Shown here in pieces: positions 10,109 through 49,151 of a stretch of 49,867 nt of DNA (the first letter of the stretch is position 1; the number at the start of each line of letters is the position of its first letter). The stretch is from a virus. The stretch is from positions 1 through 49,867 of IMG/VR virus record IMGVR_UViG_3300032223_002956; one strand, written 5' to 3'. The notes below the pieces were generated by a model. The model was not told the origin of the DNA, made no database searches, and saw nothing but the letters and a program-made list of their open reading frames with translations. Both the position numbers and the translations under genes were made by a program.

Positions 10109-11659
10109 ATGACACCAGACTCAACACCTCTAAAGGACACTATGGCAACTGGGTTGATGAAGGTGTTCACCGGCTACACCAAGGCCCACGGGGTGTATGG
10201 CGCGCTCGCCGCGGAACCCGATGAGAACGGCAAGATTCTCGGCAAGCTCCGCAAGACGGTTCGCGAGGACGTGACCCTCGCAAAATTCGAGGCCCATGTC
10301 GCCGGCGAGAACGGGATTGGCATCATCCCCATTCGCGAAGACAACAGCGTGTGGTGGGGCGCGATTGACGTCGACATCTACGACGGGTTTGAGCACCGGG
10401 AAATGGCGCTCCGCGTCGCCCGCCTCAAACTCCCCCTGGTTACCTGCCGAACGAAGTCAGGGGGATGCCACCTGTATTGCTTCGCTGCTGAGCCGGTTCC
10501 GGCCGCGAAGATGATCTCCAAGTTGCGGGACATCAGAGCCCACTTAGGGTTTCATCCCGATACCGAAATTTTCCCCAAGCAGCACACGGTGAAGTGCGAA
10601 GAGGGCGACCTTGGCTCCTGGATCAACATCCCCTATTTCAACGGGATGCTCGGTCTACGCTATGCGTTCAGCCCCAAAGATGGCGACCCGCTGTCGCTCG
10701 AGGATTTCCTCGCGACGGTCGAAGAGCAGCGCGCGTCGGTCGACTGGTTTTCGAGACCCCTCATCACCTCGCTGGATATTCCGCAGGGGCCGCCATGCCT
10801 TCAGCACCTCGTGCAGCTCGGTTTCCCCCCGGGGACGCGCAATCAGGGGTTGTTCAACCTGGCCGTCTATGCGAAGAAGTCGAACCCGGAAGGCTGGGAA
10901 GCGACCGTCGACGAGATGAACCAGAAGTACATGACCCCTCCCCTCGGTTCCGAGGAAGTGGCCACAGTCATCAAGTCGCACAAGAAGAAAGACTTCAGCT
11001 ACCGCTGCGGCGATCAGCCGATTGCGTCGCACTGCAACTCCGAACTTTGCAGGACGCGCCGCTACGGTGTCGGCCAGAGTAACGTGAACCTGCCGACTTT
11101 CGGGCGCCTCGCGCAGCTCGTCACAAGCCCTCCGTTGTGGTTTTGGGAGGTGAATGGCGCGCGCATTGAACTGACGACCAACGAACTACAGGATCCGGTT
11201 GCGTTCCAGCGGAAGTGTATGGAGAAGATCCGCGTCATGCCGCCCATCCCGAAGCGGGATGTCTGGTCGGCGCTCGTCAACGAGAAGATGATGGACCTCG
11301 ACATTATCCCCGCGCCGGCCGAGGCGTCACCCGAAGGTCAGTTCTGGGAGCACGTCGAGACGTTCTGTACGCGCACGAAGGCAATGACGCGCGACGAGAT
11401 GCTCACCGGCCGACCGTGGACCGATGGTGGCCGCACGCACTTCCGCATGAAGGATTTGCTCATGTACTTCAAGCGGCAGCAGTTCAAATCGCTGACCGAT
11501 GCACAGATGACCAACCTTCTCAATCAGGCCGGGAGTCAGCACGGTCGGTTCAACCTGAAGGGCAAAACCTGCAACTGGATCAGCATTCCAGCGTTCGAAG
11601 TGCAGAGTGAGCCGCTCGATGTTCCGGAGAGTTTGAAGGTGGAGGCGAAAATCTTTTGA
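10109..11659 (+). CDS. Archaeo-eukaryotic-type primase/primase-polymerase
   Basis: The product has 516 aa; CGGGAG at 10098-10103 precedes the ATG. Residues 82-92 (WWGAIDVDIYD) carry the DxD metal-binding motif (Asp87, Asp89), followed by TKSGGCHLYCF (His121) as the S-x-H nucleotide motif, the order of AEP primases. The middle (GTRNQGLFNLAVYAKKSN) resembles the helical PriCT-type domain. A Cys cluster near residue 300 (YRCGDQPIASHCNSELC) looks like a zinc site. The C-terminal third has no clear ATPase motif, so the replicative helicase may be one of the later genes. It probably primes for the family B polymerase. Confidence 0.75.
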   Translation: MTPDSTPLKDTMATGLMKVFTGYTKAHGVYGALAAEPDENGKILGKLRKTVREDVTLAKFEAHVAGENGIGIIPIREDNSVWWGAIDVDIYDGFEHREMALRVARLKLPLVTCRTKSGGCHLYCFAAEPVPAAKMISKLRDIRAHLGFHPDTEIFPKQHTVKCEEGDLGSWINIPYFNGMLGLRYAFSPKDGDPLSLEDFLATVEEQRASVDWFSRPLITSLDIPQGPPCLQHLVQLGFPPGTRNQGLFNLAVYAKKSNPEGWEATVDEMNQKYMTPPLGSEEVATVIKSHKKKDFSYRCGDQPIASHCNSELCRTRRYGVGQSNVNLPTFGRLAQLVTSPPLWFWEVNGARIELTTNELQDPVAFQRKCMEKIRVMPPIPKRDVWSALVNEKMMDLDIIPAPAEASPEGQFWEHVETFCTRTKAMTRDEMLTGRPWTDGGRTHFRMKDLLMYFKRQQFKSLTDAQMTNLLNQAGSQHGRFNLKGKTCNWISIPAFEVQSEPLDVPESLKVEAKIF

Positions 11660-12342
11660 CAAAACCCAGACTATTGGATCTGTACTGCTGTGCAGGGGGA
11701 TGTTCCGCTGGATATGTTCGGGCGGGCTTTGATGTTGTAGGTGTAGATATCGAACCCCAACCGAAGTACCCATTTGAGTTCCATCAGGGTGATGCTATTC
11801 AGTTTCTCGTTGAACATGGGCACGAGTTCGACGCTGTTCACGCATCCCCCCCCTGCCAGGAATATAGCCAGAGCACGAAGACGTGGAAGGCTGAAGGACG
11901 AACTTATTCTGACTTGGTCGCGCTAACGAGAGAGGCTCTGCAGCGGTGCGGGAAACCTTACGTTATTGAGAATGTTCCAGGTGCCCCGTTGGTTGAGGCG
12001 ACGCTGTTGTGTGGAACGATGTTCGGTCTATCGATCTATCGCCACAGGTTGTTTGAAACGTCCTTTTCGTTAGAGCAACCGGAACACAAACCTCATTTGG
12101 TTCCACAGGCAAAGATGGGCCGTCTTCCGAAAGCTAATGAGTATATGCAAGTCGTAGGGCATTTCTCAGGAGTTCCTTTAGCGAAAAAGGTGATGGAACT
12201 ACCTTGGATGGGGCAACGAGAACTTGCTCAAGCTATCCCCCCAGCATATACGGAATATGTCGGGAAAGTGTTGCTCGAGAACTTGAATCGTCAACCATCA
12301 ACGTCGTTCTGGAGCATGCTCAAGCGTAAGCTGGCAGCGTAA
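11656..12342 (+). CDS. Small C5 cytosine DNA methyltransferase
   Basis: The 228-aa product starts at TTG 11656 (GGAGG at 11641-11645), overlapping the primase stop. Motifs: SAM-binding LDLYCCAGGCSAGY (7-20), catalytic SPPCQEYS with Cys67, YVIENVPG (motif VI, about 102-109), YRHRLFET (motif VIII), and a C-terminal AIPPAYTEYVG (motif X-like). There is little room for a classical target recognition domain, so specificity may be short or partner-supplied. Codon use looks more A/T-rich than in the neighbouring primase, which hints at separate acquisition. It likely protects phage DNA from restriction; a second C5 enzyme lies at 48122. Confidence 0.85.
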   Translation: MTKPRLLDLYCCAGGCSAGYVRAGFDVVGVDIEPQPKYPFEFHQGDAIQFLVEHGHEFDAVHASPPCQEYSQSTKTWKAEGRTYSDLVALTREALQRCGKPYVIENVPGAPLVEATLLCGTMFGLSIYRHRLFETSFSLEQPEHKPHLVPQAKMGRLPKANEYMQVVGHFSGVPLAKKVMELPWMGQRELAQAIPPAYTEYVGKVLLENLNRQPSTSFWSMLKRKLAA

Positions 12343-46092: not shown

Positions 46093-47637
46093 CTACTGGA
46101 CGAGGCCTTGCTGGTCACCGGACATTGCCCGCATACCAAACTTGCGCTCGATCACGTAGCCAAGAGCGTCGGACATGTGGGAAATCTTCACATCGCTCTT
46201 GTCAATGACCCCAGTGCTGTTGCCCCCGGGGTCCAATTTCCATTTCGTCTGCTGCAGATCTCGTCTGAGCAGGGTGCAACCAATGTCGATCTGCAGCCGG
46301 CGATAGCCGTCGCAGCAGAGCGCGTCGTTGACCGCATTTGTGCGATCCCTGACCGCCGGGTTCTGCTTCGGAATGTGAAACGTCGTCCGGAATTCCGGAT
46401 ACCGCTGCAGAAACCGCCGAATGATGATCCAGTCGGTGTCAGTGCCGCTCGTATTGCGCTGATTGCCGCTCGAGTCACCGAAGATGTGGAGTTTGATCGG
46501 GCGGCCGCGGGCGGCGCGGACGTACTCCCTGGTCTTGTCGATGAACGCATGGCACGCCTCGGGCGTGTTTGAATTCGCCAGCGAGATCTCCTGCAGCACC
46601 TCAACGGTCAGCAGTTTCTCGTTCGTCAGGCGCGTCCGCTCAGTAGTCGTCTCGCGCCACTGGCCGATCACCGAGCTCATCGGGTCGACGTTGAAGTCGA
46701 GGCTCCAGAACAGGGGGAGTTCAGGGTCGCGGTCGAGCCGCATCACGTTCAACTGGTTGTCGTAAGCGTGGTAGACGTTACCGACACCGGCGGTTCGCGC
46801 CGGCTTGCCCATGTAGAGTGACGCCCAGTCGGCCGCACCGACGGCGCGCCGCAATTCATGGAGGGCATCAACCGGGTACCGCTCGGGGCACAACGCTTCG
46901 CCTTTCCGGCGCCCGATGACATCCGGATACTCTTCCTCCCAGATCGCCGGGAGGTTGATGACGTGCCACTTGTCCCAATCCTCATTCCATTCCGGATTGG
47001 TGAGGCGACCAACGAGGTCATCCTCGTGCCACCGGGTCATGATGATCAGGATCACCCCGCCCGGGTGGAGCCGGGTGCGGGCCGTCGAAGTCCACCACTC
47101 CCACACGCTGTCGCGGTAGGTGGGGCTGTTCGCCTCCTGGATGTTCTTCACCGGATCGTCAATGATCAGCAGATCCGCGCCTTTACCGGTAATGTCACCA
47201 CCGACACCAGCAGTGACCATGCCACCATCCTGCGATGTGCGCCACCGGTTGGCGGCCTTCGAATCTTCCGCCAGCGTAAAGCGCAAAGCACCCTGATTGG
47301 ACGTCACGATGTTTCGCACCGCGCGGCCCCATTCCGCCGCAAAGTTCGCACCATAACCGCAAAGCATGACGTGTTTCTGAGGCCAATTGTCGAGAAACCA
47401 CGTTGGTACCCACTTGGAACAAAACCACGATTTTCCGTGACGAGGTGCCATGTTAACCACGATGAATCGCGGTCCAGTACCAATACATGCCTTGTAGACA
47501 ACGTCCGAAAGGTACGTCAAGTGCCTGTAGGGGAGCCAGGGGACTGCGTCGCTGCGGCTGAGCGTGGCTGCGGTCGCCGCCGGCGTGATGCGCCAGAGGT
47601 TCTGCAGCACTTCCGGTGGAAGCGTGGAAATCGACAT
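46093..47637 (-). CDS. terL: Terminase large subunit
   Basis: The 514-aa product has a Walker A-like APRHGKSW (about residues 63-70), Walker B LLIIDDPVKN, an ATPase coupling motif in IIMTRWHEDDL and a C-terminal RNase H-like nuclease with acidic residues in FWSLDFNVDPMS, HIFGDSSGN and ISHMSDALGY. All parts of a packaging motor plus DNA-cutting nuclease are present. The ATG at 47637 has no clear ribosome site. No small terminase is obvious; the small gene at 47739 or the unknown at 49151 could be it. Confidence 0.93.
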   Translation of the reverse strand: MSISTLPPEVLQNLWRITPAATAATLSRSDAVPWLPYRHLTYLSDVVYKACIGTGPRFIVVNMAPRHGKSWFCSKWVPTWFLDNWPQKHVMLCGYGANFAAEWGRAVRNIVTSNQGALRFTLAEDSKAANRWRTSQDGGMVTAGVGGDITGKGADLLIIDDPVKNIQEANSPTYRDSVWEWWTSTARTRLHPGGVILIIMTRWHEDDLVGRLTNPEWNEDWDKWHVINLPAIWEEEYPDVIGRRKGEALCPERYPVDALHELRRAVGAADWASLYMGKPARTAGVGNVYHAYDNQLNVMRLDRDPELPLFWSLDFNVDPMSSVIGQWRETTTERTRLTNEKLLTVEVLQEISLANSNTPEACHAFIDKTREYVRAARGRPIKLHIFGDSSGNQRNTSGTDTDWIIIRRFLQRYPEFRTTFHIPKQNPAVRDRTNAVNDALCCDGYRRLQIDIGCTLLRRDLQQTKWKLDPGGNSTGVIDKSDVKISHMSDALGYVIERKFGMRAMSGDQQGLVQ

Positions 47638-48087: not shown

Positions 48088-48147
48088 TACACCCTCAGGA
48101 TAAGGGTGTAGGCAAATCAGGTTAGGCTACCTGAAGGAAGCCTAACC
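48088..48147 (-). other. Two hairpins at the 3' end of the methyltransferase gene
   Basis: TACACCCT/AGGGTGTA (48088-48110, 7-nt loop) and GGTTAGGCT/AGCCTAACC (48120-48147, 10-nt loop). The second covers the methyltransferase stop codon. Neither has a T run; they may mark a factor-dependent end or an RNA processing site. Confidence 0.5.
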
Positions 48148-49151
48148 ACTTGCGCCGCTCGACGCGCGATGCTTGCGCCTCGAGAAACGCCGTTATGAAC
48201 TCGGCCGCGACTTGCGGGACGATCGCGTTGCCGTAGGCGCTGAGTTTCCCCACTCTTCCCGGTACCCCATGAGCCAGCGGCTGAAGTCCGGATTTAACGC
48301 GCCTCGTTTTTCCGTCGAGGCAGGGGATGAGGTCGTAGTCTGACCATGGGTTAATAGGGCTACCGCTTGCAGGTCCGACCCACCTGAGTCGATCAGGCCC
48401 AATTCCTGCTTCCGTTCGGCCGACTCCGGTCCCCCGGTTATCACCTTCGGTGAGGGCCAGCCGGTCAGTCTCGCAACCGCAGTCAGGGGGTCCGCTACTC
48501 CCCTGCTCACCCTCTCCCCGCACGACTGAGAGTCTTCCGCTCGGGGTGTCGGCCATCCGGCCAGCCACCAAAAGCACCTGACGCCCCAGCAAACAATTTA
48601 CCGGCACCCCTTCGTGCAACATTGAGCCATCCTTGTGGTCGCGGCCGGTAGGCGTCGCCCACCCACCAGAGTCGCTGTCTGATGTGCGGCGCCCCGACGC
48701 CCGCAGCGCACAGATCGGCTCCCCCTGTTTCATATCCCAGTGCTTCCAGGTCAGATCGTACTCCGGAGAGCCATTCACGTCCATCCTTTGACGCAACCTG
48801 CTCTCCAAAGACTGTTGAAGGCTTACATTCGGCGATGAGTCGCCCGAAGACCGGCCAAAGATGCCGTTCGTCATTCACACCTCGTTTCTTCCCCGCGTTC
48901 GAAAACGGCTGGCAGGGGCAGGAGCCCGTCCAGACCTGCCGATCTTCCGGCCACCCCGCCAACTGCAGCGCGTATTCCCACCCGCCGATTCCGGCGAAGA
49001 AGTGGGCCCGTTGAAAGCCCCGGAGATCCCCGGGGGTGACATCCTGAATTGACCGACTGTCGACCTCACCTGCGGGCAGCAAGCCATCGCGGATGAGGTT
49101 GTTCAGCCACTCAACGCAGAACGGATTGTTCTCGTTGTAGTAGACGGCCAT
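48122..49151 (-). pseudogene. dcm: C5 cytosine methyltransferase, split by a one-base frameshift
   Basis: From ATG 49151, motif I is FFAGIGGWEYAL (51-62), motif IV GSCPCQPFS with catalytic Cys80, GEQVASKDG near 116 and motif VIII HIRQRLWWVGD (156-166). This frame stops at 48507. The conserved C-terminal part (PLAHGVPGRVGKLSAYGNAI near 48220) is in another frame, reached by a +1 shift. Removing one A from the AAAA at 48570-48573 joins both parts into 342 aa. Either a real inactivating indel, a sequencing error in the homopolymer or a recoding site explains it. A conserved second frame overlaps it. Confidence 0.8.
48193..48874 (-). other. Overlapping alternative reading frame inside the methyltransferase gene
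   Basis: In the frame one base off the catalytic one, an ORF begins MTNGIFGRSSGDSSPNVSLQ and has SPEYDLTWKHWDM, LRASGRRTSDSDSGGWATPT. After the A-run at 48570-48573 the same kind of sequence goes on in the third frame: AGWPTPRAEDSQSCGERVSR, LTGWPSPK, then LNPDFSRWLMG. In a stretch counted by hand the alternative frame has G/C at 39 of 50 third positions versus 29 of 48 in the catalytic frame. It may be true overprinting or a conserved shadow ORF. Confidence 0.5.

Follow-up and report, generated by a model that had tools for sequence, protein, structure and literature searches.

A gene near one end of the virus record IMGVR_UViG_3300032223_002956 resembles a DNA cytosine methyltransferase, is open in a second, overlapping frame, and changes register in both frames at the same short run of adenines. 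What does such a locus encode, and what happened to it in this contig? We refer to the whole stretch of 49,867 nucleotides analyzed here as the window, to the frame carrying the catalytic motifs as alpha, and to the nested frame, displaced by +1, as beta. In our assessment, the locus is very likely a predicted nested two-subunit DNA cytosine-C5 methyltransferase, frameshifted in this contig.

A shift shared by two frames

The gene lies between an upstream gene ending at 49151, whose stop codon overlaps the alpha start in a TAATG, and the terminase genes, of which the large subunit occupies positions 46093-47637 (Table 1). PF00145 scores 56.5 bits on the alpha frame of the window (cut-off 22) and matches 60 of 60 aligned relatives, and the best match by both sequence and fold is M.HhaI. 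The pre-shift part of beta comprises a region reading LTWK..ALRAS.RRTS and the first of three cassettes; its ATG at 48874 directly follows an in-frame TGA and has a GAGG five bases upstream. Elsewhere in the same contig, a second and divergent C5-methylase match lies at 11656-12342 on the plus strand (PF00145, 24.8 bits, E 3e-7).

Table 1 Features of the methyltransferase locus, in positions of the window
Feature	Position	Strand	Remarks
Methyltransferase gene	49151->48122	-	1030 nt = 3x343+1
Alpha (catalytic) frame, pre-shift	48575..49151	-	Frame 0; PF00145 E 3.9e-15; phrog_363 E 5e-61; intact-relatives profile E 3e-103
Alpha motif I	~49004-48978	-	Frame 0
Alpha motif IV, SCPCQPFS	~48923-48900	-	Frame 0
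Alpha motif VIII	~48695-48660	-	Frame 0
Beta (nested, +1) frame, pre-shift	48575..48874	-	phrog_1008 E 2.6e-9; profile E 8e-73; start context
Beta first cassette (GWATPTGRDHKDG..)	48667-48575	-	Pre-shift beta frame
Interval in which alpha and beta both shift by one base	48565..48574	-	AAAA run 48570-48573 inside
Alpha frame, post-shift, C-terminus	48122..48564	-	Frame 1; phrog_363 E 2.9e-9; profile E 4e-27
Beta frame, post-shift	48193..48564	-	Frame 2; phrog_31772 E 7.5e-11; phrog_1008 E 5e-7; profile E 8e-38
Beta cassettes 2 and 3	starts 48558 and 48462	-	Post-shift beta frame
Beta motif IX-like GALNPDFSRWLMGYREEW	~48303-48250	-	Post-shift beta frame
Alpha motif X (YGNAIVPQ)	~48232-48212	-	Frame 1, post-shift

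The first-pass annotation had proposed that the enzyme motifs and the conserved C-terminus lie in different frames, and that a single base removed from the AAAA run would repair both frames at once. Profiles built from intact relatives bear this out. The enzyme-frame profile matches the window in frame 0 (model positions 14-191) and then in frame 1 (229-300), and the alternative-frame profile matches in frame 1 (27-191) and then in frame 2 (181-313). The break is tightly bracketed in beta, with ..GRQV ending at base 48575 and LAGWPTP beginning at 48564, and in relatives both frames run unbroken through this site. The repeated GW(P/A)TP pattern described in the alternative frame was recovered as three GW(A/P)(T/S)P copies, one before the shift and two after it, and the gene is, as stated, one nucleotide longer than a multiple of three.

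As sequenced, the window divides the locus among three ORFs. The first ORF (214 aa), in which the pre-shift alpha frame continues to 48507, lacks motif X; a 250-aa ORF fuses the beta start and first cassette to the alpha motif X; and motif IX is stranded in an ORF of 105 aa. Motif X is thus separated from the uninterrupted polypeptide bearing motifs I, IV and VIII, with which it forms a single chain in intact relatives.

A single indel at the A-run is the best account of this double shift. The position of the shift, exactly at a four-base homopolymer, would also suit a programmed frameshift leaving the gene without any defect. We regard this as extremely unlikely: both frames move together, as an indel in the DNA itself would cause but a single slip in either frame would not; alpha is intact without a shift in 201 distinct relatives; and broken members are scattered (L045, L100, L108, L115 and L251, the last a Paenibacillus prophage), as mutation or error would give. 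Alpha is also partial or split in L054 (Pseudomonas phage PACT201) and L138. Since the 201 relatives need no shift, the shift in the window is private to this contig. A gapped-pattern search around the A-run found no near-identical relative in viral_contigs, and a search for close relatives with the post-shift alpha frame found none either, so that the indel may be either a mutation or a sequence error, the two being inseparable here. The contig as a whole is not riddled with indels, since nearby ORFs run uninterrupted for 1346 and 1429 codons.

Conservation and selection of the nested frame

Whether beta is a gene was judged from relatives of the locus. We assembled 201 distinct full-length alpha genes, fetched by enzyme-frame patterns, by the alternative frame, or from annotated phages. 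Most were fetched by beta, and the subset fetched by alpha-only patterns (n = 35) gives the same result. The +1 frame was open over a median of ~89% of the gene in each retrieval set, compared with 16-25% for the +2 frame (201 genes). Among the 35 genes fetched by alpha alone, synonymous shuffling predicted 52.5 beta-frame stops over motifs I-VIII and 40 in the cassettes, and we observed one and two, respectively (overall 3 versus ~93 expected). The +2 frame, serving as a control, showed no comparable depletion (92/118 and 195/186).

Synonymous sites of alpha are constrained as well. Identity at four-fold sites in the alpha alignment is 31-36% (0.33) up to codon ~95, rises to 60-69% from there to motif VIII, reaches 80-88% over the segment that beta reads as LNP..WLMG (motif IX), and falls to 40% past the end of beta. 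The jump implies that functional beta begins near the HLWP of alpha, and a beta-frame start codon is found near HLWP in 143 of 179 relatives. The exact position of this codon varies among relatives, and its Shine-Dalgarno signals are weak (38/179, compared with 61/189 for alpha). Support for a fixed beta start codon or a strong Shine-Dalgarno signal was only partial.

Could GC-rich composition and conserved enzyme motifs nonetheless produce the second frame as a by-product, with no second protein made? The majority of members are indeed GC-rich, and the alternative-frame motifs are partly forced by alpha codons (RRTS derives from the GAPHIRQRL region, and GWPTP shares bases with VADT). Yet composition does not reproduce the pattern. 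Among neighboring genes of equal GC, 0-2.6% are at least 80% open in the +1 frame, versus 89-95% of alpha genes above 50% GC, and the same nesting occurs at 42-44% GC, in Krischvirus KMB43 and Paenibacillus phage Tadhana. Together with the stop depletion relative to the +2 control, the jump in four-fold-site conservation at the beta start, and the cassette substitutions described below, which track beta rather than alpha, these observations leave the by-product reading highly improbable. The pattern in relatives excludes a chance origin of the open second frame. Judged by these sequence comparisons, the overprinting of beta on alpha is real, as the first-pass annotation had suspected. It withstands both conditions that the annotation had named for its refutation, since the second frame is open in relatives and synonymous sites are under constraint. 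The supporting observation, a stronger G/C bias at third positions in the alternative frame, also holds in direction when more codons are counted (72/100 versus 52/100 in the enzyme frame, pre-shift, same bases).

In two members, from Arsenophonus (L115) and Commensalibacter (L145), the overlapping region has 49-53% GC. Both hosts are AT-rich, and the GC content might be kept up by dual coding or by recent transfer.

We then mapped which frame is selected along the gene. Counted over pairs, ignoring kinship, substitutions fall on alpha codon positions 1, 2 and 3 in proportions of 28/23/49% over motifs I-VIII and 31/22/47% over the C-terminus. In the cassettes the proportions are 44/30/26% (counted in the same way, kinship ignored), a +1-frame signature indicating that beta is selected there. 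Recounted in the beta frame, the cassette substitutions give 24/15/60-61% (pairs 60-85% identical, kinship again ignored). The third-frame comparison and the synonymous shuffles are a partial guard against kinship in these counts. Amino acid identity in the cassettes points the same way, at 0.62 for beta compared with 0.41 for alpha and 0.43 for the third frame, and the beta register holds 459 of the 479 cassette matches. In the first cassette of the window, 74 of 151 differences lie at beta position 3 and 32 at position 2. The sequence evidence thus indicates that selection switches along the gene, acting on alpha over motifs I-VIII, on beta over the GWxTP cassettes, and on both over the C-terminus.

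Alpha nevertheless stays open throughout. Its frame holds no stops in the cassettes, versus 255 expected if only beta mattered, in a set picked for full-length alpha, and full-length alpha was missing in only 6 of 160 loci fetched by beta. On the simplest reading of these counts, alpha has to stay readable across the cassettes, with its sequence there free to vary. The fold model of alpha, whose best PDB matches are M.HhaI, has low confidence over the cassette linker (pLDDT below 50 at 175-198).

The order of selected frames, alpha, then beta, then alpha, invites another explanation, namely a single protein made by programmed frameshifting, which would carry motifs I-VIII from alpha, slip to beta for the cassettes and motif IX, and return to alpha for motif X. 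The spliced order (I-VIII, recognition domain, IX, X) would be that of the canonical enzyme. However, beta is stop-free and constrained from about alpha codon 100 onwards, well ahead of the cassettes, and has a start codon at its onset in most genes; the stop-free passage of alpha through the cassettes, with the selection of the set noted above, likewise counts against slippage, and split relatives (see below) have a separate second ORF. We consider a frameshifted single protein unlikely, though it retains a small share of our confidence, and proceed with two separately encoded proteins.

Cassettes, split relatives and the predicted role of beta

Genes that otherwise resemble one another differ in how many cassettes they hold and in the order of these, and the same cassette was found again in unrelated phages. 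Three loci (L007, L019 and L022) share common flanks and carry different cassettes between motifs VIII and X, as in a recent cassette exchange. The motif IX-like LNP..WLMG.P..W of the relatives occurs in the +1 frame only, while motifs I-VIII and GNAIVPQ are in alpha.

A broader clade, that of Paenibacillus phage Tadhana, shows the same nesting, and in Tadhana itself (44% GC) both ORFs are annotated as DNA-cytosine methyltransferase. Four divergent loci of this clade are arranged differently (L248, L262, L265 and L267, the last at 35% GC). Here the first ORF carries motifs I-VIII, and an overlapping +1 ORF carries, in a single frame, the cassettes, LNPDWVECLMGF.IGWTD and ..GNAV (motif X). Four rows scored as nested (L253, L256, L257 and L259) were left out, a wrong frame offset having placed their open frame at +2. 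The order of this second ORF, recognition domain followed by IX and X, is that of ordinary C5 enzymes, which by homology identifies the beta cassettes as a recognition domain and the LNP motif (LNP..WLMGFP) as motif IX. Beta is therefore probably the half of a C5 methyltransferase that contains target recognition and motif IX, in other words the enzyme's own missing half. This point is absent from the first-pass annotation, as are the selection of beta in the cassettes and the M.EcoHK31I precedent.

Two further loci, L264 and L270, resemble single-chain enzymes, with a single ORF holding motifs I-VIII, the cassettes, IX and X. Both carry the beta start and the first cassette in the +1 frame; they may instead represent copies that were frameshifted, secondary fusions or errors of sequence, and were not counted as ancestral.

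Beta has no sequence match in Pfam, NCBIfam or PDB, and its fold model, which is poor (mean pLDDT 67, pTM 0.28), matches no solved structure. The missing domain match would be compatible with a real overprinted protein whose function is unrelated to methylation. This seems quite unlikely to us, given that the beta sequence of split relatives is continuous with a methyltransferase motif X, that the cassettes, like the recognition domains of multi-specific phage enzymes, form modules of variable number, that alpha has no conserved recognition region, and that M.EcoHK31I offers a precedent. On the evidence of its position, the modularity of its cassettes and the split relatives, beta looks like the recognition subunit. 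The published prediction for M.EcoHK31I, with the recognition domain in alpha, counts against this role.

The nested two-subunit enzyme that we favor would be organized as follows. The outer ORF, alpha, would provide the catalytic half (I-VIII), a weakly constrained stretch, and motif X. Beta, read in the +1 frame, would start at about codon 92-100 of alpha and encode a short stretch at its N-terminus, between one and several exchangeable GWxTP-initial recognition cassettes, and motif IX. We infer that the two proteins are translated separately off one message and assemble as one active enzyme, in which alpha would flip and methylate the cytosine and beta would read the target sequence. Cassette swaps would then change specificity, presumably protecting phage DNA from restriction. 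The gain or loss of a single base within 48574-48565 would break both proteins together in this contig. On plasmids, no endonuclease was annotated near the gene in the one region examined (pTO42E).

The layout of two genes in one is conserved across hundreds of phages and bacteria. We lean, with some reserve, towards a more general proposal: that the C5 methyltransferases of phages and prophages include a very large and largely unrecognized dual-coded group, with cassettes that are protein-coding only in nested beta and an alpha that is an unconstrained linker there. Nesting would have arisen by successive frame changes that moved the enzyme's own recognition half to a second frame, from split to nested, rather than by de novo overprinting, and phages would trade cassettes as modules, leaving both frames open.

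Long genes nested on the same strand are rare, and their existence is difficult to prove. Hundreds of independent examples, alternating selection and split relatives would together offer a natural series from an enzyme to two overlapping genes. Many phage cytosine methyltransferases would accordingly be mis-annotated, with one of two subunits called, and specificity prediction or engineering from the enzyme frame would target the wrong protein. In Pseudomonas phage PMG1 (L057) and Synechococcus phage Sc-Yong805-2 (L231), the annotation includes the nested beta ORF alone, as a hypothetical protein, and misses the catalytic alpha.

Comparison with known two-polypeptide methyltransferases

M.EcoHK31I, which recognizes YGGCCR, and M.EaeI are both two-polypeptide C5 methyltransferases. 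Lee, Kam and Shaw (in NAR, 1995) reportedly described the EcoHK31I beta subunit in an alternative frame inside alpha, both proteins being needed. The large alpha subunit of M.EcoHK31I carries motifs I-VIII and X, and the predicted recognition domain has been placed in it, while the small beta subunit carries motif IX; M.AquI is a naturally split C5 enzyme with its catalytic and recognition halves on separate polypeptides, the small subunit bearing IX and X (PMC3404938).

In every anatomical feature compared, the family of the window follows M.EcoHK31I, its closest precedent. As in that enzyme, alpha of intact relatives has motifs I-VIII and X and lacks IX, and a small IX-bearing protein is nested in the large one in another frame, as is reported for EcoHK31I. 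Unlike M.EcoHK31I, with its recognition domain predicted in alpha, the present family has cassettes selected in beta, several of them exchangeable, and resides mostly in phages and prophages. The four split relatives, in which the second ORF carries IX and X, are closer to M.AquI, whereas in the window and its clade relatives motif X lies in alpha, with beta nested inside it.

Existing catalogs hold both halves separately. The PHROG families matched by alpha (phrog_363) and beta (phrog_1008) are both labeled DNA methyltransferase and are listed as separate families, with no mention that a single stretch of DNA encodes both in two frames. In Escherichia phage K1ind2, both frames are annotated as overlapping coding sequences, a "putative C-specific methylase" and a "putative Mte8-like protein"; the pair was deposited without a functional link, and both frames are intact there, unlike in the window. 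Papers on the K1 phage and on the Paenibacillus phage include the genes in their lists and are silent on the overlap. In the literature searched, we found no report of such nesting in phages, which is not proof of absence. Relative to these systems, what appears to be new here is the breadth of the arrangement over phages and bacteria, down to 42-44% GC, together with target cassettes selected in the nested frame and a putative series leading from split to nested genes.
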